Source: Tissierellia bacterium (GTDB taxonomy: Bacteria; Bacillota; Clostridia; Tissierellales; Tepidimicrobiaceae). Taken from it: a stretch of 36,886 nucleotides of DNA. Below, piece by piece: positions 1,845-26,018 of this stretch; position 1 is the stretch's first letter, and each line of letters opens with the position of its first letter. The notes under the pieces are model-generated. The model worked only from the letters and a program-made list of their open reading frames with translations, was not told where the DNA came from and did no database searches. Where the stretch lies: the NCBI GenBank assembly GCA_012735405.1, contig JAAYHM010000084.1:1-36886 (forward strand), read 5' to 3'. The position numbers and the translations under genes are program-made.

Positions 1845-3365
1845 TTGAGGATAGCTAAAAAGGTAGCAAAGTCTGCCATAATCATCATGGTATTTACATT
1901 GAGTAGTAAATTTCTAGGATTCATAAGAGAAGTACTCATAGCTTCAAAATTTGGTTCAGGAATGGAAACAGATGCCTATTTTGTGGCTTATTCTGCCACA
2001 TATATGCTTATAAGGCTAATAGGAACGGGGTTAAATACTACAATGATACCAATACTTTCTGAAATAGAGACAAAAAAAGGTAAGGCTAAAAAGGATTTTT
2101 ATGTTAACAATTTATTAAATTCAGTAGGCTTGTTAGCAATATTCATAATTGTGTTAGGCTGGTTTGTAGCACCAGGGCTTATCAAAATAATGGCTTATGG
2201 CTTTAAATACAAGGAGTTTCAATTAGCTGTAAGGCTTACCAGAATTGGTTTACCTATAATGATAATATCAGGGACATGCTATATACTGACAGGTTATCTC
2301 CATAGTAGTGAAAGCTTCTTTGTTCCAGCTGTGGCAGGTCTTCCATTTAACTTTGTGCTTATAATCTATTTATTATTTTTTTCCCAAAATTATGGCATTA
2401 TGGGATTAATGGCAGCCACTGTATTGGCTGAATTGATAATGCTAACCATACAAATTCCAGCAGTAAAAAAATTAGCTTTTAAATACAGATTTATAGTGGA
2501 TTTTAGAGACACATATATAAAGAAGGCATTACTATCAACCTTACCTGTAATTATAGGTACTGCTATAAACGAATTAAATGGAATAATAGACAAAACCATG
2601 GCTTCAAGCTTGGTGGAAGGTAGTATATCAGCCTTGAATTATGCAAACAAAATAAACAGCTTAATATTGGGCGTATTTATAACAGCAATAGCTACTGTTG
2701 TATTTCCGGTATTATCCAGAGAATTCAATAAAGACAATATTGAGGAAGTAAAGTCTGTATTAGGCTATGGTTTAAATATAGTGATATTAATAACTGTACC
2801 TGCAGCTACCGGGTTAATTATTCTATCTAAGCCAATTGTAAGGGTGTTTTTTGAAAGGGGAGCCTTTAGCTCAACAGATACAATAATGACAAGTTTTGCC
2901 CTTGTTTTTTATGCAATTGGATTGATAGGTTCAGGAACAAGTCTTCTCCTAAGCAGAGTTTTCTATTCATTAAAGGATACAAAAACTCCTATGATAAATG
3001 GAGCAATTGCAGTAGCTGTAAATATATTGTTAAACATAGTTTTTATAAAACCGCTTAAGCATGGTGGTCTTGCTTTGGCTACCAGTATTTCTTCAATAAT
3101 TGCAGCCTTATTGCTCTTGAAGGACCTGAGTAGAAAAATAAAAGATGTGTATTTTGAACCTAATTTAAAGTGTTTAATTAAATCTATATTAGCAGCAGTT
3201 ATTATGGCTGTAATTGTATATGGACTTTACAGCCTAATTAGAGATATTTTTATTGGAAGCAAATTGATGGAGTTAATAGCCTTGGCTGTAACAGCAGCAG
3301 TTGGTGCATTAGTTTATGGTATTCTTTGTTTTCTTTTTAAAGTTACACGGTTTCTATTATTTTAG
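1845..3365 (+). CDS. MurJ/MviN-family lipid-linked oligosaccharide flippase
   Basis: A 506-residue polytopic membrane protein of the MOP superfamily, with roughly 14 hydrophobic helices. The N-terminus has the MviN/MurJ signature SSKFLGFIREVLIASKFG followed by DAYFVA, and later ALNYANKIN and FFERGAF, all typical of MurJ. MurJ flips lipid II. Placed between the Wzz/kinase pair and sugar-nucleotide genes, it may instead move the lipid-linked repeat unit of this glycan, the role usually taken by Wzx; that is inference. It starts with TTG behind GGAGG at 1831-1835. The stop codon is within the right arm of a strong terminator. Confidence 0.85.
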   Translation: MRIAKKVAKSAIIIMVFTLSSKFLGFIREVLIASKFGSGMETDAYFVAYSATYMLIRLIGTGLNTTMIPILSEIETKKGKAKKDFYVNNLLNSVGLLAIFIIVLGWFVAPGLIKIMAYGFKYKEFQLAVRLTRIGLPIMIISGTCYILTGYLHSSESFFVPAVAGLPFNFVLIIYLLFFSQNYGIMGLMAATVLAELIMLTIQIPAVKKLAFKYRFIVDFRDTYIKKALLSTLPVIIGTAINELNGIIDKTMASSLVEGSISALNYANKINSLILGVFITAIATVVFPVLSREFNKDNIEEVKSVLGYGLNIVILITVPAATGLIILSKPIVRVFFERGAFSSTDTIMTSFALVFYAIGLIGSGTSLLLSRVFYSLKDTKTPMINGAIAVAVNILLNIVFIKPLKHGGLALATSISSIIAALLLLKDLSRKIKDVYFEPNLKCLIKSILAAVIMAVIVYGLYSLIRDIFIGSKLMELIALAVTAAVGALVYGILCFLFKVTRFLLF

Positions 3366-3377
3366 AAACCGTGTTTT
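3345..3377 (+). terminator. Strong terminator overlapping the end of the flippase gene
   Basis: A 12 bp perfect stem, ACACGGTTTCTA (3345-3356) with TAGAAACCGTGT (3363-3374), a 6-base loop and a T-rich tail. It covers the last codons and the TAG, and divides the glycan cluster into two transcripts unless read through. Confidence 0.85.
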
Positions 3378-3468
3378 GTGTGTTTTTATAAATTTATAAA
3401 CAAAGCTTGTACACTGTTCTGTTTTGTAATTTATAAAAATAAAATATATACAAGGTTAGGAGATATGG

Positions 3469-5367
3469 GTGAATGATATGGGAAGAAAGGTTATGGCTAT
3501 AATTTTTCTATTAATAGATGCTGTACTAATAAATCTTACTTATATATTGTCGTTGATAATTAGATTTGAAGAGGCTATATATAGTAATCAATTCATATTA
3601 TATTTTACAAGATATAAGGAGCAGTTTATCTATATTACTCTAATCAAGCTAATCATATTTGCTTTTTTTAAAATGTATAGGAGTATATGGAGATATGCAA
3701 GTGTTGAGGAGCTAGTGAATATTGTCCTGGCAGCTATAGTATCTAATTTGGCAATATTAAGCTACACCCATCTGATAGGAAGTAACTTGCCAATAAGCGT
3801 CTATATTATAGCAACTCTATTTGACATGATGTTTATTGGAGGGGCACGGTTTTGCTTAAGAGTTGTTAAATTATATATGGATAAATTTAACCAAGACAAG
3901 AACAAAAAAAGAATAATGATTATAGGTGCTGGAGAAGCTGGTGTTTTAGTAATAAAAGAATACAAAAATCATCCCCAGTTAAACAGCAAACCAGTAGCTT
4001 TAATAGATGATGATGAATATAAGCAAGGAAGGGTTATCATGGGAGTGCCTGTGGTTGGAAAGAGGGATGATATACTGGCTCAGGTTGAAAAGCTTAAAAT
4101 TGATGAAATAATTTTAGCTATGCCATCTGCTTCAAAAAAAGACATTAGTAGTATTGTAGATATATGTAAGAAGACCAAGGCCAAATTAAAAATACTGCCT
4201 GGAGTATATGAGTTAATAGATGGTAAAGTGACAATCAAGAATATTAGAGATGTTCAAATTGAGGATCTGCTTGGTAGAGAAGAGATAAAAACAGACATAA
4301 ATGCAATAAGCAGCTATATCAAGGATAAGGTAATTCTAGTAACTGGTGGCGGCGGTTCAATAGGCTCTGAGCTATGCAGGCAGATAGCCAATATTAAACC
4401 AAGGAAGCTAGTAATAATTGAAATATATGAGAATTCTGCCTATGATATTGAAAATGAATTGCTAAGGCGCAATAAGGACCTAAATCTTAAGATTTATATA
4501 GCCTCTATCGTTGACAGGGATATAATGTTTGACTTATTCAATATAGAAAGACCAGATGTGGTATTTCATGCAGCAGCACATAAACATGTACCTTTAATGG
4601 AGGCTAGTCCAAAGGAATCAATAAAAAATAATGTATTTGGAACCTTAAATCTTGTCCATGCAGCAGATAAATATGGTGTAAAAAAATTTGTAATGATTTC
4701 AACAGATAAGGCGGTAAATCCAACTAATATTATGGGAGCAAGTAAAAGAATATGCGAGATGATCATTCAATCTGTAAATCCTGTGTCTAAAACTGATTTT
4801 GTTGCTGTAAGATTTGGAAATGTACTGGGAAGCAATGGCAGTGTTATACCACTATTTAAGAAACAGATTGAAGAAGGGGGACCAGTTACAGTAACCCATA
4901 AGGATGTTATAAGGTATTTTATGACAATTCCTGAAGCTGTAAGCTTGGTGATTCAAGCTGGTGCCATAGTTAAAGGTGGAGAGATATTTGTATTAGATAT
5001 GGGAAAACCTGTAAAGATTTTGGATTTAGCTGAAGATTTAATTAGGTTATCAGGATTTGAACCTTATAAGGATATTCAAATAGAAATAATAGGATTAAGA
5101 CCAGGAGAAAAATTATACGAAGAGCTATTTTTTGAGGAAGAAAATGTTACATCCACAATGCATGACAAGATATTTGTAGCAAAACCCACTTTTACAGATT
5201 ACAAACTGCTAATGAAATCCTTAGAAGAAGCAAAAAGAATTATTAAGGAAGGTACAGATGAAGATCTTAAGGTTTACATACAATCTATAGTGCCTAATTA
5301 TACAATACAAAGAACTCCATCTTATACCTGTCTTAATGCTACAATACCCAGGTACTATAAAGACTAG
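3469..5367 (+). CDS. Membrane-bound UDP-GlcNAc 4,6-dehydratase, PglF/WbpM/CapD family
   Basis: At 632 residues it has the long-form layout. Four membrane helices occupy about residues 8-130, then a Rossmann-like CoA-binding domain with IIGAGEAG, then an extended SDR domain starting at about 287. The SDR cofactor loop is TGGGGSIGSE (near 290-299). The catalytic region reads STDKAVNPTNIMGASK, with Met422 where short dehydratases have Tyr, and Lys426. That Ser/Met/Lys arrangement is known from the large WbpM/PglF enzymes. They turn UDP-GlcNAc into the 4-keto-6-deoxy sugar at the membrane. GTG at 3469 is chosen because TAGGAG lies 6 bases upstream; ATG at 3478 is an alternative. The aminotransferase after it takes its likely product. 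Confidence 0.9.
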   Translation: MNDMGRKVMAIIFLLIDAVLINLTYILSLIIRFEEAIYSNQFILYFTRYKEQFIYITLIKLIIFAFFKMYRSIWRYASVEELVNIVLAAIVSNLAILSYTHLIGSNLPISVYIIATLFDMMFIGGARFCLRVVKLYMDKFNQDKNKKRIMIIGAGEAGVLVIKEYKNHPQLNSKPVALIDDDEYKQGRVIMGVPVVGKRDDILAQVEKLKIDEIILAMPSASKKDISSIVDICKKTKAKLKILPGVYELIDGKVTIKNIRDVQIEDLLGREEIKTDINAISSYIKDKVILVTGGGGSIGSELCRQIANIKPRKLVIIEIYENSAYDIENELLRRNKDLNLKIYIASIVDRDIMFDLFNIERPDVVFHAAAHKHVPLMEASPKESIKNNVFGTLNLVHAADKYGVKKFVMISTDKAVNPTNIMGASKRICEMIIQSVNPVSKTDFVAVRFGNVLGSNGSVIPLFKKQIEEGGPVTVTHKDVIRYFMTIPEAVSLVIQAGAIVKGGEIFVLDMGKPVKILDLAEDLIRLSGFEPYKDIQIEIIGLRPGEKLYEELFFEEENVTSTMHDKIFVAKPTFTDYKLLMKSLEEAKRIIKEGTDEDLKVYIQSIVPNYTIQRTPSYTCLNATIPRYYKD

Positions 5368-5425
5368 GAGACATGGGATACCCGATGATAATATAGAAGA
5401 GTTTATGATAATAGGGGGAAGGCTG

Positions 5426-6568
5426 ATGGATAGGCGGATTTATCTAGCATCGCCACATATGAGTGATGAAGGTTATGAGTTGGAATATATCAAGGAAGCT
5501 TTTGATACCAATTGGATTGCACCATTGGGAGCCAATGTAGATAGCTTTGAAAAGGAATTTGCTGAAAAAATAGGGGCAAAACATGCTGCTGCTTTAGTAA
5601 CCGGAACTGCTGCAATACACATGGCTTTGAAGGCAGCTGGTGTTGAGGAAGGTGATATAGTCTTATGTCAGGATCTTACCTTTGCAGCAACTGCTAATGC
5701 AATTATTTATCAAAATGCCATACCAGTGTTTGTAGACAGTGATTACGAAACCTGGAATATGAATCCTAAAGCCTTGGAAGAAGCCTTTGAAAAATATCCA
5801 AATGCCAAGGCTGTTTTAGTAGTTCACCTATATGGACTTTCAGCAGATATGGATAGGATTGTAGATATATGTAAGAGATACCAGGCTGTATTAATTGAAG
5901 ATGCAGCAGAAGCCCTAGGGACCTATTATAAGGGAAGGCATGTGGGAACCATTGGTGATTATGGTGTATTTTCCTTTAATGGTAATAAAGTAATTACTAC
6001 TTCTGGTGGAGGCATGCTTGTTTCAGATAATGAAGAGAGAATTGCAAAGGTAAGATTTTGGGCGAGCCAATCAAGGGAAAAGGCCAGGTATTATGAACAC
6101 AGGGAGCTGGGATACAACTATAGAATGAGCAACATATTAGCTGGAATAGGCAGGGGGCAGCTAAAGGTCTTGGATAAAAGGTTAGCCAAGAAGAAATATA
6201 TATTTGAATTCTACAAAAGAGAACTAGACCATCTTGAAGGAGTAAAGTTTATGCCAATTAATGAATGGAATGAACCAAATTACTGGCTAACTTGTATAAG
6301 GCTAAATGATTGTTATTCCGGGCATAGTAAAGGATCGGGGATTCTACCTGTTGATATTATAGAAGCATTAGAAAAAGAAAATATAGAATCGCGACCTCTC
6401 TGGAAACCAATGCATCTGCAACCCTTTTTCGCAGGATATGATTATATAGGTGAAAATGTCAGTGGAAACCTGTTTGAAAAAGGCCTTTGTTTACCAAGTG
6501 ATACAAAGATGACGGATGAAGATTTGAGCAGGGTTTGCAGGGCTATTAAGAGGTTGTGGTATAGTTGA
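5426..6568 (+). CDS. DegT/DnrJ/EryC1/StrS sugar aminotransferase, PglE-like
   Basis: A 380-residue PLP enzyme. Visible family marks are [14 protein letters not shown] in the cofactor pocket, EDAAEALG with the pyridine-binding Asp, and [15 protein letters not shown], where Lys188 should form the Schiff base. The C-terminal part has [13 protein letters not shown], also typical. It probably puts an amino group on C4 of the keto sugar made by the preceding dehydratase, as PglE does in bacillosamine synthesis. The frame stays open upstream into the dehydratase gene, but GGGGGAAGG at 5413-5421 and the standard N-terminus fix the ATG at 5426. Its stop overlaps the start of the next gene. Confidence 0.9.
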
Positions 6569-7200
6569 AAAACGGAATATATAAAAGGTACTTAAAAAGG
6601 CCAATGGATATCCTATTATCCTTAGTAACCTTAATAGTACTATGGCCTTTAATATTGATAATTGCAGTATTAGTAAAAATCAAATTAGGTAGTCCAATAA
6701 TATTTAAGCAGGAAAGAGTAGGATTAAATGAGAAAATATTTACCTTATATAAGTTCAGAACTATGACAGATGCTAGAGATGAAAAGGGGGAACTGTTGTC
6801 TGATAGTGCCAGGCTTACTAAATTTGGCAAGATGCTTAGGTACACATCTTTAGATGAACTTCCCCAGCTGTTTAATATTTTGAAAGGTGATATGTCTATT
6901 ATAGGACCCCGGCCATTACTAGTAGAGTATCTTCCTTTTTATAAGGAATATCATAAGCAGCGTCACAGTGTAAGACCAGGCTTATCCGGCCTTGCTCAGG
7001 TTAATGGCAGAAATGCTATTACATGGGAGGATAGGTTTGATTTAGACGTGAAATATACCCTTAACATTACCTTCCTTGAAGATCTGAAGATTATATTTTT
7101 GACATTAAAAAAAGTATATAAAAAAGAAGGTATAGATTTTGATGGGCCTATATCTATGGAATATTTTGAAGGAAGTAAGGAAGAGTCATTTCCATTGTAA
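6565..7200 (+). CDS. PglC-like initiating phosphoglycosyl transferase
   Basis: A 211-residue small-form polyprenol-phosphate sugar transferase. One hydrophobic membrane segment at about 14-36 is preceded by KRPMDILLS. The core has [24 protein letters not shown] with the catalytic Asp97-Glu98 pair, [12 protein letters not shown] and [13 protein letters not shown], all hallmarks of the monotopic PGT family. It moves a sugar phosphate from UDP-sugar to undecaprenyl phosphate and so starts the repeat. The TTG start overlaps the aminotransferase stop (TTGA), with AAGAGG 11 bases upstream, so the two are translationally coupled. The PglF-PglE-PglC order suggests an amino-dideoxy first sugar. Confidence 0.9.
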
Positions 7201-7238
7201 AATTATCTTCAGTAATAAATATAAAAGGATGAATAAGG

Positions 7239-8231
7239 ATGAAGTATAGTGATATCTATTTTTTAGAAAAGTATGGAAGGTTGTATGAAGAAATTGAAAA
7301 TGGCAAATTAGAAGTATTTGAATATAATTCAAATATTGGCTCAATAAGAAACATGTTTATTAAAAGGGATATTCCAATAATTATAGATAATGTTAAATAT
7401 TATGACATAGTAACACCTTATGGATATGGCGGACCAATAATAGTGAAATGTTATGATGAATCAAAAAGAAAGGAATTGGTAAGAGGTTATCATAACCAGT
7501 TTAGGACCTATTGCTTAGAAAATAATATAGTTACAGAATTCATACGCTTTCATCCTATAAATAATAATGCAAGGGATTTTATGGATATATACCAGGTAGA
7601 ATTTGTTAGAAAAACAGTAGGAACAAATATAAAAGACTATGATGATCCAATACAAAGTGAGTTTAAAAAGGGATGCAGAAAAGAAATTAGAAGGGCTCTT
7701 AATAGAGGGGTTAAATACAGAATAAAAAGAAGCCCTGACAACTTAGATGTATTTAAGGAACTATATTATAAGACAATGGACAGGAATAGGGCTAATGATT
7801 ACTATTATTTTGATGATAAATATTTTGACAATATATTATTAAGTTTTAGGGATGAATTATTAATAACAGAATTAATATTTGATGATAAAGTAATAGCAAG
7901 TGAAATGTATTTTGTGTCAGATAGGCTTATACATGCCCATCTATTAGGAAATTTAGATGAATATTTACATTTATCAGCAGGTGTTTTGCTTGAATATGCA
8001 ACAGTTCTTTGGGGGAAAGAAAATGGATATGATTATTTACACCATGGTGGGGGAAGGACAAATGATGAAAATGATCCCTTATTTAAGTACAAAAAAAAGT
8101 TTGGCAAGAATACAGAATTTGATTTTTACATAGGAAAGAAAGTTTGGAATGAAGAGGTATACAAAAAATTGATTGAAGTAAGCAAGGTAGATCCAAATGT
8201 GGATTTCTTCCCTGCTTATAGGAGTAGATAG
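7239..8231 (+). CDS. FemAB-type GNAT acyltransferase of the glycan cluster
   Basis: A soluble 330-residue protein with the double-GNAT look of FemAB/Acetyltransf_6 proteins: YGYGGPI in the first half, a basic helix KKGCRKEIRRALNRG near the centre, ELIFDDKVIASEMYF, and YDYLHHGGGR with FKKKFG-like residues near the end. Some relatives add amino acids from tRNA to peptidoglycan, others acylate sugars or glycan intermediates. No PglD-like acetyltransferase for the 4-amino sugar is present in the window, so this gene is a candidate for modifying it; that is inference. ATG 7239 follows AAGGATGAATAAGG. Confidence 0.7.
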   Translation: MKYSDIYFLEKYGRLYEEIENGKLEVFEYNSNIGSIRNMFIKRDIPIIIDNVKYYDIVTPYGYGGPIIVKCYDESKRKELVRGYHNQFRTYCLENNIVTEFIRFHPINNNARDFMDIYQVEFVRKTVGTNIKDYDDPIQSEFKKGCRKEIRRALNRGVKYRIKRSPDNLDVFKELYYKTMDRNRANDYYYFDDKYFDNILLSFRDELLITELIFDDKVIASEMYFVSDRLIHAHLLGNLDEYLHLSAGVLLEYATVLWGKENGYDYLHHGGGRTNDENDPLFKYKKKFGKNTEFDFYIGKKVWNEEVYKKLIEVSKVDPNVDFFPAYRSR

Positions 8232-8243
8232 AAAAAAAGGCAG

Positions 8244-9455
8244 GTGTGCATAATTAAAGACATATTACTTATTGCCCATTTTTCACAAGTACCAGGGGAA
8301 AAAGGTAATTGCAGGTTTAATTATATTGCAGAGAGAATAGATAAAAGTAAGGCCAGTGTTGAATTAGTGACATCAAATTTTGCCCATGATACAAAATCCC
8401 ATAGAAGCATTGCTGATGTACAAAGAAGCAGCATTAACTATAAGCTTACTATGCTTTATGAACCTGGTTATTATAAGAATGTTTCACTTAGAAGATTTTA
8501 TAGCCATTTTGTAATGGGAAACAGTTTAAAAAGGTATTTAAAGAAAAGAAAAAGACCAGATCTTATATATTGTTCAGTGCCTTCCCTTGATGTAGCTAAG
8601 GTTGCGGCTAAATATGCCAGTAAAAATAAGGTACCCTTTGTTATTGATATTCAGGATTTATGGCCTGAAGCCTTTAGAATGGTTTTCAATATACCCATAA
8701 TAAGTCATATTTTATTTTATCCCATGAAAATAAGGGCTAATTATATTTACAGGACGGCTGATGGAATAATAGCCGTTTCTCAAACCTATGTAGACAGGGC
8801 GTTAAAAAATAATAGTAAGTGTAAATTTGGATATAGTGTATACTTGGGAACTGATTTAGGTTACTTTGACCAGATAGTACAAAATAATAAATTTAAAAAT
8901 AAGCCTGAGGATGAAATATGGCTGGTATATATAGGCACTTTAGGGCATAGCTATGATTTAATTTCAGTAATCGATGCATTAAAGATCATTAAAGACAAAG
9001 GAATTCACAATATCAAGTTTATTGTCATAGGAGATGGACCCATGAAGTCCAAATTTGAGAGGTATGCAAAGGAAAAAGGCATATATGCAGAATTTACCGG
9101 TAGCTTAAGCTATGAAAGAATGGTTGGTATTTTAGCTGTATGTGACATAGCAGTCAACCCTATCAGGAAGGGTTCAGCAGGTAGTATTATTAATAAAGTT
9201 GGAGATTATGCAGCTGCTGCTTTACCTGTAATAAATACCCAAGAATCCTCTGAATATCAAGAGCTGCTTGTGAAGTACAATGCAGGATTTAATTGCAGAA
9301 ATGGAGATGCAGAAGATATTTCAGAAAAAATACTAACCCTGTATTTTGACAATGATCTGCGTAGGAAGATGGGAAAGAATAATAGATTGCTTGCAGAAGA
9401 GAAATTTAATAGGGCAAACACTTACTCAACCATAATAGATTTATTAAACAGTTAA
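8244..9455 (+). CDS. Glycosyltransferase family 4 (WbuB/PglA-like)
   Basis: A 403-residue GT-B fold enzyme. The N-terminal half holds IAHFSQVPG and later DIQDLWPEAF, usual in the WbuB/WcaI group. The C-terminal nucleotide-binding half has VYIGTLG, FIVIGDGPMKSKFE and the acidic region DIAVNPIRKGSAGSI followed by KVGDYAAAALPVI. It should add a sugar from a nucleotide donor to the lipid-linked acceptor on the cytoplasmic side. The start is uncertain: GTG 8244 follows AGGCAG closely. Confidence 0.82.
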   Translation: MCIIKDILLIAHFSQVPGEKGNCRFNYIAERIDKSKASVELVTSNFAHDTKSHRSIADVQRSSINYKLTMLYEPGYYKNVSLRRFYSHFVMGNSLKRYLKKRKRPDLIYCSVPSLDVAKVAAKYASKNKVPFVIDIQDLWPEAFRMVFNIPIISHILFYPMKIRANYIYRTADGIIAVSQTYVDRALKNNSKCKFGYSVYLGTDLGYFDQIVQNNKFKNKPEDEIWLVYIGTLGHSYDLISVIDALKIIKDKGIHNIKFIVIGDGPMKSKFERYAKEKGIYAEFTGSLSYERMVGILAVCDIAVNPIRKGSAGSIINKVGDYAAAALPVINTQESSEYQELLVKYNAGFNCRNGDAEDISEKILTLYFDNDLRRKMGKNNRLLAEEKFNRANTYSTIIDLLNS

Positions 9456-9542
9456 GTTTAAATAAATTGATGTAGATAAGACAAGGAATGATTAAATAGT
9501 TGGGGAAGTTTAAAGAAAAATGCAAAATAAGGAAGGATCTAT

Positions 9543-10472
9543 ATGAAAATAAAATGGCCAGACAATAAAAAATTTGCTTTTACTATAGTAGATGATACGG
9601 AAAACTCCACCATTGAGAATGTAAAACCTATATATGATTTCTTGTACCAGCATGGACTTATAACAACAAAAACTGTATGGGTTTACCCATCCAGGGATTG
9701 TTTTACCGGCGGGTGCTTATTAGACAATGATTATTTGGAATTTATTGCTGATCTTAAGGCAAAGGGATATGAAATTGGGATACACAATGTAGGGGCAGGA
9801 GAATATACCAGGGAAGAAATAATAAAGGGCTTGGATTTGTTTAAGGAGAAACTTGGATTTTATCCCAGCATCCATATTAATCATTATAGCAATAAAGATA
9901 ATATTTATTGGGGCCATGAAAGGTTTCAGCTTATTTTGCGTAGCTTGTTTAAAATAATATATGGAGAAAAAAGAAAGTTTTATGGCACCGATATAAATTC
10001 CAAATATTTTTGGGGGGACATATGTAAAAGCAAAATTAGATATATAAGAAATTATACATTTAATGATATAAACACCTTAAAAATTGATCCCTTGATGCCT
10101 TATATGGACAAAAATAAAGAAAAATACAGTAACTATTGGTTTAGTTCCTCTGATGGGCATACAGTGAAGGAATTCAATGCCCTGTTGAAAAGGGAGAATG
10201 TTGACAGATTGGAATATGAAGGTGGTGCATGCATAGTTTATACACATTTTGCCTACAACTTTGTTGATAGTAAAGGGAGAATTAATGAGGACTTTGCAGA
10301 GAAGATAAAATATCTTGCCAGCAAGGATGGATGGTTTGTACCAGCAGGAGTTTTGCTGGATTATTTACTATCCTTTAAGGGAAATCATTATGTTTCAAAA
10401 TCATATTTAACAGCATTAGATTTTAAATGGTTATTGGATAGGATAATTAAAAGAATCAGGTTTAATAAATAA
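9543..10472 (+). CDS. Divergent polysaccharide-deacetylase-like protein
   Basis: A 309-residue protein without signal peptide or membrane helix. The N-terminus FTIVDDTEN resembles the NodB first motif, with two acidic residues, and YEIGIHNVGAGEYTREE occupies the place of the second, but only one His of the usual His-x-x-x-His pair is present. Later HINHYSN and YTHFAYNF could complete a metal site. The (beta/alpha) pattern and the GYEIGIH step suggest a CE4-like fold. Activity and substrate are uncertain; in this cluster an acetylated glycan precursor is the natural guess. AAGGA at 9531-9535 precedes the ATG. Confidence 0.55.
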   Translation: MKIKWPDNKKFAFTIVDDTENSTIENVKPIYDFLYQHGLITTKTVWVYPSRDCFTGGCLLDNDYLEFIADLKAKGYEIGIHNVGAGEYTREEIIKGLDLFKEKLGFYPSIHINHYSNKDNIYWGHERFQLILRSLFKIIYGEKRKFYGTDINSKYFWGDICKSKIRYIRNYTFNDINTLKIDPLMPYMDKNKEKYSNYWFSSSDGHTVKEFNALLKRENVDRLEYEGGACIVYTHFAYNFVDSKGRINEDFAEKIKYLASKDGWFVPAGVLLDYLLSFKGNHYVSKSYLTALDFKWLLDRIIKRIRFNK

Positions 10473-10520
10473 GAAGGTGATCGTATTTTAATACCAGAAA
10501 TAAGCAATAGAAAACCTAAA

Positions 10521-11738
10521 TTGGGAAGGGTTTTATTTGCCTGTATACTATTTAGTTTATTCCCTATTGTATTTGCACATACCATATCACCTGATTTTGC
10601 TTCAAGTATGATGTATCAGGTCTTAGTTGGAATTATGTTTATACTGCAATCAGTTATTGTCTTGAAATATTTTTTAACATCTGAAACAAAAACCATTAAG
10701 ATAATATTTTTAATATACGCATTGATACTAACAATTTCCCAGTTGATTACACTGCTGTTATCTTCATTGACAATAGGAATTAATTATTTAGATATAATTA
10801 ATGCTTTTGCACGTTTTATAAGTGTTTTTATATTCCTATGCATTCCATCAAAAATGACTATCTCTAAAGATGACTTTAGAAGATTTATGCTATTAATAAC
10901 AATTTTAGGATTAGTAGCCAGTTTATATAACTTAGTTACAAACTTTAGGGAAGCCTTAAATATATTAAATATAAACAATGCATATGAAGTAAGTTTTACC
11001 TCATTTTACCTAAATAGAAATAGTTTCGCCCAATTACTTTTATTTTCAATTATTGCTAATTCATTTTTAAACAGTGAAACAAAAAGAAAATACAGGCTGC
11101 TTTTTTACCTTCTTTATTTCATTAATATATTTTTGACCTTATCAAGAACTGTTTTGGCTTCTGTAATTATATTTTTAGTAGTGTCATCTGTAATTTACAA
11201 AAGAAATATAATAAAGGGCAGTATTATTATTTTGATTGCTATAATTATTCTAGCTTTATTGATTCAAACTAAACCAGATATAAAAAGGTTTATTATTGAT
11301 ATGGTTGTAAGAAAGGAAACCGGCACAAGCGGGAGAACTGATCTCTGGTCTGTGGGGATTCGGATATTGGATGATTCAAACTGGTTTTTTGGTGTAGGTT
11401 ACATTAGTAGTATAGATATTATTAATGATATGGGCTTTAGTTCCCATGAGTTCCATAGTTTTTATATAGAAACTTTAGTAGGCGGAGGCATAATAGATCT
11501 CTTATTACATTTAATTATCCTCATATTCATTAGCGCTAGAATAAAAGTTATATATAAAAATGATAGAAAAATAGGTGCCCTATATTTTTCAGCATATATT
11601 TCTCTACTGGTGTATGCTATGTTTGAAAGTGCTTCTATTTTTTCAATGGGATATGTGGGGACCTTATTTACTATTTTCATTGTAACCATACCGCTTTTGT
11701 ATTCTAATAATTTTTTATCAGAGCCAACTGCAACGTAA
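10521..11738 (+). CDS. Wzy/O-antigen ligase-type membrane protein
   Basis: A polytopic membrane protein of at least 405 residues with about 10-12 hydrophobic helices. The diagnostic part is the extracytoplasmic loop GTSGRTDLWSVG, then FFGVGYIS, then SSHEFHSFYIETLVGGG, which matches the Wzy_C domain. It should polymerise or ligate repeats outside the membrane. TTG 10521 is the first conventional start but has no ribosome site. A good site, AGAAGGTGA at 10473-10480, stands 40 bases upstream and would serve an unconventional ATT at 10485 or ATA at 10491, giving up to 12 more residues. Last gene of the glycan cluster. Confidence 0.82.
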   Translation: MGRVLFACILFSLFPIVFAHTISPDFASSMMYQVLVGIMFILQSVIVLKYFLTSETKTIKIIFLIYALILTISQLITLLLSSLTIGINYLDIINAFARFISVFIFLCIPSKMTISKDDFRRFMLLITILGLVASLYNLVTNFREALNILNINNAYEVSFTSFYLNRNSFAQLLLFSIIANSFLNSETKRKYRLLFYLLYFINIFLTLSRTVLASVIIFLVVSSVIYKRNIIKGSIIILIAIIILALLIQTKPDIKRFIIDMVVRKETGTSGRTDLWSVGIRILDDSNWFFGVGYISSIDIINDMGFSSHEFHSFYIETLVGGGIIDLLLHLIILIFISARIKVIYKNDRKIGALYFSAYISLLVYAMFESASIFSMGYVGTLFTIFIVTIPLLYSNNFLSEPTAT

Positions 11739-14728: not shown

Positions 14729-14737
14729 AATACATAA

Positions 14738-14775
14738 AACAATTCTCAAAGTTTTTCCTTTGAGAGTTGTTTTTT
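14738..14775 (+). terminator. Terminator after the M20 peptidase gene
   Basis: A 14-pair stem (14738-14751 with 14758-14771, one G-T pair), a 6-base loop, and a run of T. Confidence 0.88.
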
Positions 14776-14884
14776 AGTTGTCATCTATGGTATATAAGAT
14801 ATAAAATACACTATAATTATTATTAATAAAGATATGGTTAAATTATAAAAAGACATGAAGAAAATCCTGAAAGGAGATGTATAT

Positions 14885-15151
14885 ATGAAAAAAGTAATTG
14901 TTTTCGGTAGTAAACACTGACCAACTTGTGAGCCAGCGAAAGAGTATCTTTCAGAGAACAATATTGAATTTATTTATCTGGATATTACAGAAAATATGAT
15001 AAATCTTAAGAAGTTTTTAAAATACAGAGATACAAGGCCGGAATTTGATAAAATTAAAGAAGCTGGAATGGTTGGCCTGCCTTGTATAGTCATAAATAAT
15101 GGAGAAAAAATTATATTTGATGTAAAGGAAATAGAGGGCATAAATAGCTAG
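14885..15151 (+). CDS. Selenocysteine-containing glutaredoxin-like protein (in-frame TGA)
   Basis: Reading the TGA at 14918-14920 as selenocysteine gives an 88-residue thioredoxin-fold protein. It starts MKKVIVFGSKH, has the redox motif U12-P-T-C15, and carries the glutaredoxin cis-proline region GMVGLPCIVIN. The usual glutaredoxin motif is C-P-x-C, so U replaces the nucleophilic Cys, which argues against a nonsense mutation. AAGGAG at 14871-14876 is 8 bases before the ATG, terminators flank the gene, and coding quality continues past the TGA. Selenoprotein glutaredoxins are known in Clostridia. It probably reduces disulfides or glutathione-like mixed disulfides. Standard gene callers would miss or split it. 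Confidence 0.88.
14938..14952 (+). promoter_or_regulatory. Candidate bacterial SECIS hairpin
   Basis: GAAAG (14938-14942) pairs with CTTTC (14948-14952) around the loop AGTAT. The loop starts 22 bases after the TGA and has G as its second base, which fits the known bacterial SECIS rules of a small apical loop 16-37 bases downstream with an early G. The stem is only 5 bp, so the fold is tentative. Confidence 0.5.
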
Positions 15152-15202
15152 TGCTGAAAAAAGTATGATTTTGCAATTTTAATGTATTTAAACTTTGAAT
15201 TG

Positions 15203-15235
15203 GCATCAGGCTAAGGAGTGCTTGATGCTTTTTTT
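15203..15235 (+). terminator. Terminator after the selenoprotein gene
   Basis: GCATCAGGC (15203-15211) pairs with GCTTGATGC (15220-15228) over 9 bp including one G-T, followed by seven T. Confidence 0.85.
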
Positions 15236-23323: not shown

Positions 23324-24124
23324 TTAGAATGCAGGTACTACTCCACCTTCGTAGTTTTCTTCAATAAATTGTTTTACTTCATCACTTTGCAGAGCTTCCA
23401 TCAATTTCTTAAACTTTTCTTCATTTTCTTCTCCTGCTCTTACTGCAACTATATTAGCATAAGGTGATTCCTTTCCTTCCAATAAAATTGCATCCTTTGT
23501 AGGAACCAAACCTGCTTCTAAAGCATAATTTCCATTTATGATTGCACCATCAACTTCATCAAGAACCCTTGGAAGTTGTGCAGCTTCTAAAGGTCTAAAA
23601 GTCAGGTTTTTTGGATTTTCTATTATATCATTTTCTGTGGCTAATATGCCTGCTTTTTCATCTAATTTTATTATGCCTGCTTCTTGAAGAAGCAGTAGAG
23701 CCCTTCCACCATTGGTTCCATCATTTGGAATAGCAATTTCTGCACCATCTTCAAGTTGGTCAATTGAATCATATTTTGATGAATATAGTCCCATTGGTTC
23801 TACATGAACCCCTCCAATAGAAACTAAGTTTGTGCCATTTTCTTCGTTAAAATTGTTTAGATATGGCTCATGTTGGAAGAAGTTGGCATCTAAATCTCCA
23901 TCTTCTAAAGCAGTATTTGGAGTTACATAATCAGTAAAGGTTATTATTTCAAGACTTATACCCTCTTCTTCTAAATTATCCTTAATTAATTCTACTATCT
24001 TTCCATGGGGCTCTGGAGATACACCTATTCTAATTACATTATCATCTGAACTATCTTGGCTACAAGCTGCAAATGTTAAAGCTAAAATAGCAACTAATGA
24101 TATTAGCAATAATTTTTTCATCAT
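23324..24124 (-). CDS. metQ: Methionine ABC transporter substrate-binding lipoprotein
   Basis: 266 residues of the NlpA/MetQ family. The signal peptide ends at lipobox FAAC. The mature part has RIGVSPEPHGKIVE, ALEDGDLDANFFQHEPYL and IAIPNDGTNGGRALLLLQ, with later NLTFRPLEAAQLPR and DGAIINGNYALEAGL, all standard in MetQ. It captures methionine outside the membrane for MetNI. Last gene of the SAM-controlled transcript; 17 bases separate it from metI. Confidence 0.93.
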   Translation of the reverse strand: MMKKLLLISLVAILALTFAACSQDSSDDNVIRIGVSPEPHGKIVELIKDNLEEEGISLEIITFTDYVTPNTALEDGDLDANFFQHEPYLNNFNEENGTNLVSIGGVHVEPMGLYSSKYDSIDQLEDGAEIAIPNDGTNGGRALLLLQEAGIIKLDEKAGILATENDIIENPKNLTFRPLEAAQLPRVLDEVDGAIINGNYALEAGLVPTKDAILLEGKESPYANIVAVRAGEENEEKFKKLMEALQSDEVKQFIEENYEGGVVPAF

Positions 24125-24783: not shown

Positions 24784-25791
24784 CTACATCACCTCCACAT
24801 TTACATTATTGCTGATTAAATAGTTAATTGCTTTGTTTATTTCTTCATCTTCTCCCTGTATTTCAAGAATCAGATGTCCTACACTAGTTTTTATCAACCT
24901 GTTAATATCACCAGATAATATATTCACTTCAATATCAAAATTCTTTACCATCCTGGATACAATAGGTTTTTTGGCATTTTCTCCAGTATAGCCAAGCCTT
25001 ACTATTGTTGCGGAAGATTCATTAGGTTCTATAATTTCCTCTGTAATATCAGATTTAATTCTACTTATAAATTCATGAGCAGTTTTGGTCCTTGGATTTT
25101 TAAATAGTTCTTCCACAGTATTTATTTCAATTATTTCTCCATTTTCTATTATCGCAACCCTGTCGCATATATCTTTTATAACTTCCATTTGATGGGTTAT
25201 CAGTACAATGGTAAGGCCAAATTCATCCCTTGTCCTTCTTAAAAGATCTAATATGGATTTTGTAGTTTTTGGGTCTAAGGCTGAAGTACCCTCATCACTT
25301 AGAAGTATTTTTGGATTGTTTGCCAAAGCTCTTGCAATTGCAACCCTCTGTTTTTGACCTCCGCTTAATTGGGAAGGGTAGGCATATTTTTTATCCTCTA
25401 GACCTACATATTCCAGAAGGGTGTCGACCCTTTTTTCAATTTCATCTTTAGATAAGCCTTCTAATTCCAAGGGAAAGGCTATATTTTTGTATACAGTTTT
25501 TTGTGAGAAAAGATTAAAATGTTGAAAAATCATACCTATATTTTTTCTTAAATTTCTTAAATTTTCTTTATCATAGACTGTAATATCTTCGCCTTGTATA
25601 TAAATTTTTCCTTGGGTTGGTTCTTCAAGTCTATTTATACATCTTATTAAAGTGGATTTACCAGCGCCGCTTAACCCGATTATGCCAAATATTTCACCTT
25701 CGTTTATTTCTAAATTTACATTTTTTAAGGCTTCTATATTATTGTTGTTTTCATCGTAAAAAGTTTTGGATAAATTTTCAATTCTAATCAA
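24784..25791 (-). CDS. metN: Methionine ABC transporter ATPase with NIL domain
   Basis: 335 residues. Walker A GLSGAGKST, Q-loop IFQHFNLF, ABC signature LSGGQKQR, Walker B ILLSDEGTSALDP (Glu kept, though SDEG replaces the more common CDEA) and the H-loop LITHQ are in place. The last ~80 residues form a NIL-type regulatory domain that binds methionine and inhibits transport in known MetN. TTG start, with GGGGG about 9 bases upstream. The whole operon is behind the SAM-I riboswitch. Confidence 0.94.
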   Translation of the reverse strand: MIRIENLSKTFYDENNNNIEALKNVNLEINEGEIFGIIGLSGAGKSTLIRCINRLEEPTQGKIYIQGEDITVYDKENLRNLRKNIGMIFQHFNLFSQKTVYKNIAFPLELEGLSKDEIEKRVDTLLEYVGLEDKKYAYPSQLSGGQKQRVAIARALANNPKILLSDEGTSALDPKTTKSILDLLRRTRDEFGLTIVLITHQMEVIKDICDRVAIIENGEIIEINTVEELFKNPRTKTAHEFISRIKSDITEEIIEPNESSATIVRLGYTGENAKKPIVSRMVKNFDIEVNILSGDINRLIKTSVGHLILEIQGEDEEINKAINYLISNNVNVEVM

Positions 25792-25872: not shown

Positions 25873-25881
25873 ATGCTCTTC

Positions 25882-25985
25882 CTTATCTCTCGACATCAAA
25901 GATGTCGCTGGAATTGGCACCTTGTAGTGCAAAACTACAGGTTGCCGGGTTTCATTGGGCCAGTCCCTCCACCACTCTTGATAAG
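25882..25985 (-). ncRNA. SAM-I (S-box) riboswitch
   Basis: On the - strand, P1 is CTTATC/GATAAG, followed by AGAGTGGTGGAGGGACTGGCCC, interrupted here after the core GGAGGGACTGGCCC, then ATGAAACCCGGCAACC, then GGTGCCAATTCC, which are the conserved S-box blocks in order. The upstream P2-P3 region and the P4 stem GACATC/GATGTC are complete. With SAM bound, P1 closes and the downstream terminators form, shutting off metNIQ. Confidence 0.95.
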
Positions 25986-26018
25986 TGCATGTTATCAAGT
26001 TTTTGTATTTTAGATTAT

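Follow-up and report, generated by a model that had tools for sequence, protein, structure and literature searches.

Is the in-frame UGA in a short glutaredoxin-like gene a stop codon, or is it the site at which selenocysteine (Sec) enters the protein? The question is raised by a gene in a contig from a Tissierellia bacterium, the whole 36,886-nucleotide stretch of which was analysed and is called the window here. A preliminary description, made from the DNA letters, had read the UGA as encoding Sec in a glutaredoxin. This reading is supported by the conservation of the UGA in homologues, by its exchange with Cys, by a hairpin downstream and by the Sec genes of the host. The observation itself is confirmed as that of a real and widely conserved gene, and with Sec at the catalytic position the gene almost certainly encodes a genuine Sec-containing glutaredoxin-like oxidoreductase.

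The gene and its in-frame UGA

The features of the locus are collected in Table 1. Translated with UGA as Sec (U), the gene gives MKKVIVFGSKHUPTCEPAKEYLSENNIEFIYLDITENMINLKKFLKYRDTRPEFDKIKEAGMVGLPCIVINNGEKIIFDVKEIEGINS. The single in-frame UGA is codon 12 and takes the place of the first Cys in a C-P-x-C motif. This is the catalytic position earlier assigned to the UGA, and Cys occupies it in 12 homologues. With Cys in place of Sec, the protein matches the Pfam Glutaredoxin family (PF00462) with 35.2 bits, against a gathering cut-off of 22.9. The preliminary description had also noted a well-placed ribosome site and a small hairpin 18 bases downstream of the UGA, both of which are found; most homologues are likewise preceded by GGAG boxes of similar kind.

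Table 1. Features of the glutaredoxin-like locus in window coordinates.
Feature	Position	Strand	Basis or detail
Terminator-like hairpin after upstream pepT-like gene	14736..14773	+	16 pairs, then T run
Ribosome-binding site AAAGGAG, 8 nt before ATG	14870..14876	+	Read from sequence
Putative glutaredoxin-like selenoprotein gene, ATG to TAG, 88 aa	14885..15151	+	Translation with TGA=U, Pfam, homologues
UGA codon, predicted Sec, first position of U-P-T-C, codon 12	14918..14920	+	UGA/Cys homologues
SECIS-type hairpin GAAAGA-GUA-UCUUUC	14938..14952	+	Begins 18 nt past UGA, apical loop 23 nt past
Terminator-like hairpin after glutaredoxin-like gene	15202..15229	+	10 pairs, then TTTTTT

The neighbouring genes encode a pepT-like peptidase on one side and a putative lipoprotein on the other. 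With terminator-like hairpins both before and after it, the gene probably has a transcript of its own; the region contains three such sites, whereas shuffled sequence gives 0.1. No NCBIfam model matches the protein above its cut-off and, because of this and of the UGA, ordinary gene finding and annotation would be likely to truncate or drop the gene, which is restored here.

Conservation of the UGA and of the hairpin

In a first search, covering 100 related genomes, UGA was found at exactly codon 12 in 20 loci from 19 genomes, and Cys forms were found in others. A wider scan took in named genomes and 391 genomes of the class, and the combined total is 36 distinct UGA forms and 12 Cys forms (TGT/TGC) at the same codon. 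The UGA homologues represent several families of the class and include [Clostridium] ultunense, Clostridium sp. Cult1 and Cult3, Tissierella sp. P1, Sedimentibacter acidaminivorans and many Tissierellia MAGs, while the Cys forms come from Parvimonas, Fenollaria and some Tissierellia MAGs. Alignment with Cys homologues, which had been proposed as a check, is close to gapless. Throughout the subfamily the second Cys of U-P-x-C is invariant, and there is a GLPC segment with an invariant Pro (P66). It had also been suggested that unrelated stops or frameshifts at this place in close relatives would speak against Sec; none was seen among the compared sequences of close relatives, which have either UGA or Cys there. 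The median dN/dS is approximately 0.09 over the 8 codons upstream of the UGA and 0.13 over the 59 downstream, indicating purifying selection on the reading frame both before and after the codon, around which good coding sequence had earlier been reported.

In a protein tree the UGA forms do not separate from the Cys forms; at least two changes between them are forced, and parsimony requires five, there being few columns for resolution. Because several of the genomes with Cys forms also carry the Sec machinery, Cys is interchangeable with Sec here and does not just mark its loss. It is worth adding that one genome (G013) has both forms on one contig, a UGA copy (L009) lying about 10 kb downstream of a Cys copy (L044, 1882-2136), which is without the hairpin. 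A more distant second branch of Sec forms (L024 and L091-L094, with GSHxU and U-P/G/K-x-C) has the same hairpin at the same distance, the L024 protein being only 43% identical. Glutaredoxin-like relatives were not found in viral contigs.

The energy of the hairpin was rejected as SECIS evidence when taken alone. Folding the window sequence from the UGA through the 40 nt that follow gives -4.3 kcal/mol, which is no better than shuffled sequence (z = 0.58). The main argument that the hairpin goes beyond chance is instead the contrast between UGA forms and Cys forms. All five pairs of the stem GAAAG/CUUUC (+18 to +32) are intact in 35 of the 36 UGA forms, and the stem is found in none of the 12 Cys forms, although the compared sequences are related, so that these counts are not independent events. 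When synonymous codons were resampled by window codon usage with the protein fixed, the stem appeared in a mean of 2.1% of draws per sequence. The codons AAA, GAG and CTT are invariant across the 20 order-level UGA loci; in window usage GAA outnumbers GAG by a factor of 3.6, and TTA outnumbers CTT by more than two to one. With a further A-U pair, the sixth, the loop comes down to three bases, the G of which is invariant in all 36 UGA forms. Of the cells of the stem 98.6% are paired; a single change is compensatory, and a few involve G-U pairs. There is little covariation signal (the observed pairwise score was reached by 31 of 500 shuffles) because the stem hardly varies.

The published model of bacterial SECIS elements has a stem of 4-16 bp, a loop of 3-9 nt with G in one of its first two positions, a distance of 16-37 nt from UGA to loop, and an energy of -7.5 kcal/mol or lower (PMC13188914). 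The window hairpin lies within these limits for stem (6 bp), loop (GUA), G (first) and spacing (23 nt), but misses the energy limit, at -4.3 against -7.5 kcal/mol (PMC13188914). Folds of 57 nt from the UGA homologues range from -4.3 to -11.1 kcal/mol. The energy limit is a search filter of the program rather than a demonstrated functional requirement, and a subset of bacterial SECIS elements lies outside the model (PMC13188914).

Selenocysteine machinery and other readings of the codon

The preliminary description took the UGA to imply a SelA/B/C/D system in the host, and regarded its absence as evidence against Sec. The complete gene set is present in the window's own genome. The genes selD, selA and selB adjoin one another (C51:37376-41737), with scores of 397, 633 and 386 bits respectively, and a tRNA-Sec with anticodon UCA scores 73 bits (C24:8617-8713). 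The host selD itself contains an internal UGA, as do both of the grdA genes for glycine reductase (L108 and L109, on contigs C152 and C155 of the host genome G000), with one each, which suggests that this genome uses Sec in other proteins too. The grdA gene on C155 has a thioredoxin reductase gene about 2 kb away. Of the 19 genomes in which the first search found UGA forms, 18 have selB above cut-off, the nineteenth having only a fragment, and 14 have tRNA-Sec above cut-off, the remaining five being draft assemblies. We infer that Sec is inserted at the UGA, in which case SelB with its Sec-tRNA would bind the hairpin and direct the insertion.

Two other readings of the codon have to be weighed against this. 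The UGA could be a true stop, the gene then being a broken glutaredoxin (a pseudogene) or the product of a sequencing error; a full-length product does require read-through of the UGA, and the assembly that represents the organism is a fragmented draft of 222 contigs. However, the same UGA is present in 36 distinct homologues, which come from separate assemblies and in some cases from cultured strains, the coding constraint persists past it, and SelA, SelB, SelD and tRNA-Sec are present in the host. A stop is thus very improbable, and the conservation of the UGA has in effect refuted it. We regard as still less probable that the UGA is read as another residue, either as Trp under a changed code or through general suppression. 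A code in which UGA is Trp would likewise yield an in-frame UGA, but the homologues have Cys at this codon and never Trp, all 63 Trp codons counted are UGG, UGA, though rare as a stop, still ends 2 of the 31 window genes, and the tRNA-Sec has the anticodon UCA. A pseudogene, an assembly error and UGA as Trp were all rejected, on the UGA conservation, the tRNA-Sec, the codon usage and the dN/dS values.

Proposed redox function and relation to known selenocysteine glutaredoxins

Structure prediction gave a best model, out of five, of moderate quality, with a mean pLDDT of 81 and a pTM of 0.69, the others having pLDDT values of 46-58. The predicted elements are E4-8, H15-24, E29-33, H38-50, H52-60, E67-70 and E75-77, which place C/U-P-x-C before the first long helix of a thioredoxin-like fold. 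The model matches the dithiol glutaredoxin cGrx1 (PDB 7c10, TM 0.69/0.79) as well as other glutaredoxin and thioredoxin-like proteins. Going by what is established for the chemistry of this fold, the redox pair consists of U12 with C15, and P66 should be the cis-Pro. The selenolate of U12 would attack disulfides or similar substrates, and C15 would resolve the mixed selenide-sulfide. The oxidised protein would then regain its reduced state through thioredoxin reductase or another thiol path, and not through glutathione made in the cell. No glutamate-cysteine ligase gene of the two types searched for (Glu_cys_ligase and glu_cys_lig_rel) was found in the host genome and a thioredoxin reductase gene is present, from which we infer that the electron donor is independent of glutathione, other thiols or imported glutathione also being possible. 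The host selenoenzymes, glycine reductase and others, are plausible redox partners. The gene neighbours show no conservation beyond near relatives: an AbgT-type transporter and the pepT-like gene lie upstream in the window, one near relative also has an AbgT-type transporter, and elsewhere the neighbours are unrelated genes. The context therefore names no substrate.

Sec-containing glutaredoxins as a kind are already known, as the preliminary description had said for some Clostridia. They have been listed for Geobacter, Moorella and Alkaliphilus metalliredigens (PMC1794560) and as Grx, PF00462 (PMC13188914), and these, like the window protein, combine the Pfam Glutaredoxin domain with UxxC; the Grx selenoprotein pair of A. 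metalliredigens may include members of the subfamily described here. The studied example is cGrx1 of Clostridium (Alkaliphilus) oremlandii, which has U13-P-H-C16 and structures 7c10 and 7c12 (PMC4479559). Its likeness to the window protein lies in the Sec at the first position of U-P-x-C, the thioredoxin-like fold and the similar size (84 aa). However, the two sequences are alignable only over residues 2-49 (E 1.8e-6), the structural match has about 30% identity, and the F..IK..G.VGLPC segment of the subfamily falls outside the alignable stretch. Judged by its sequence, the subfamily of the window protein is distinct from cGrx1, and what is new here is the member of a separate subfamily. Its Cys members in Parvimonas and Fenollaria are 43-53% identical to the window protein and differ from it in having Cys (C-P-D/G-C) and no hairpin. 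In the literature searched, nothing was found on this subfamily in Tissierella or Sedimentibacter.

Granted that Sec is inserted, its role could still be other than that proposed above. One alternative is that the protein uses Sec to bind a metal or metalloid, as has been suggested for the Uxx-star group of selenoproteins (PMC13188914), rather than acting as a redox glutaredoxin. The UXX-star selenoproteins (NF041114, NF041212) are also small, glutaredoxin-like Sec proteins, and the window protein does give weak NCBIfam matches to UXX-star family 1 (28.4 bits) and Uxx-star (26.8 bits); both are nevertheless far below the cut-offs of 72 and 66 bits. Moreover, family 1 carries UxxT (PMC13188914), whereas the window protein has U-P-x-C with the invariant second Cys and the GLPC segment with its invariant Pro, as in redox glutaredoxins, and we consider metal binding improbable. 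Somewhat less improbable, though still unlikely, is a role like that of cGrx1 as a glutathione-linked reductant for selenoprotein MsrA. In its favour, no solved structure is closer in sequence than cGrx1, which is also among the nearest in fold, and glutaredoxin reduces Sec-containing MsrA in C. oremlandii (PMC4479559). Against it, the MsrA genes found in relatives have no internal UGA, only an MsrA fragment at a contig end was found in the host's own genome, and no glutathione synthesis genes of the types searched for were found there. A pairing with MsrA as in C. oremlandii found no support.

The preferred reading remains a redox glutaredoxin with Sec as its attacking residue. As a more speculative extension, to which we give a low but appreciable chance, it could belong to an unnamed Sec glutaredoxin-like subfamily present across the class and missed by annotation models, free of glutathione, recharged by thioredoxin reductase or by ferredoxin-linked thiols, and serving the selenoenzymes of amino-acid fermentation. 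The protein adds a clear Sec subfamily with a strongly conserved SECIS hairpin of its own. Natural Sec/Cys pairs, such as the two forms in G013, bear on the advantage that a glutaredoxin gains from selenium in bacteria that apparently do not make glutathione.

Elsewhere in the window, a SAM riboswitch (25880-25987 on the minus strand, 97.8 bits) lies upstream of a methionine-type ABC transporter set, which consists of an ABC ATPase with a NIL domain (24784-25791) and an NlpA lipoprotein (23324-24124). A surface polysaccharide cluster at 1845-11738 contains a MurJ-type flippase, a polysaccharide synthesis epimerase, a DegT aminotransferase, a FemAB-like protein, a glycosyltransferase and an O-antigen-ligase-like protein.
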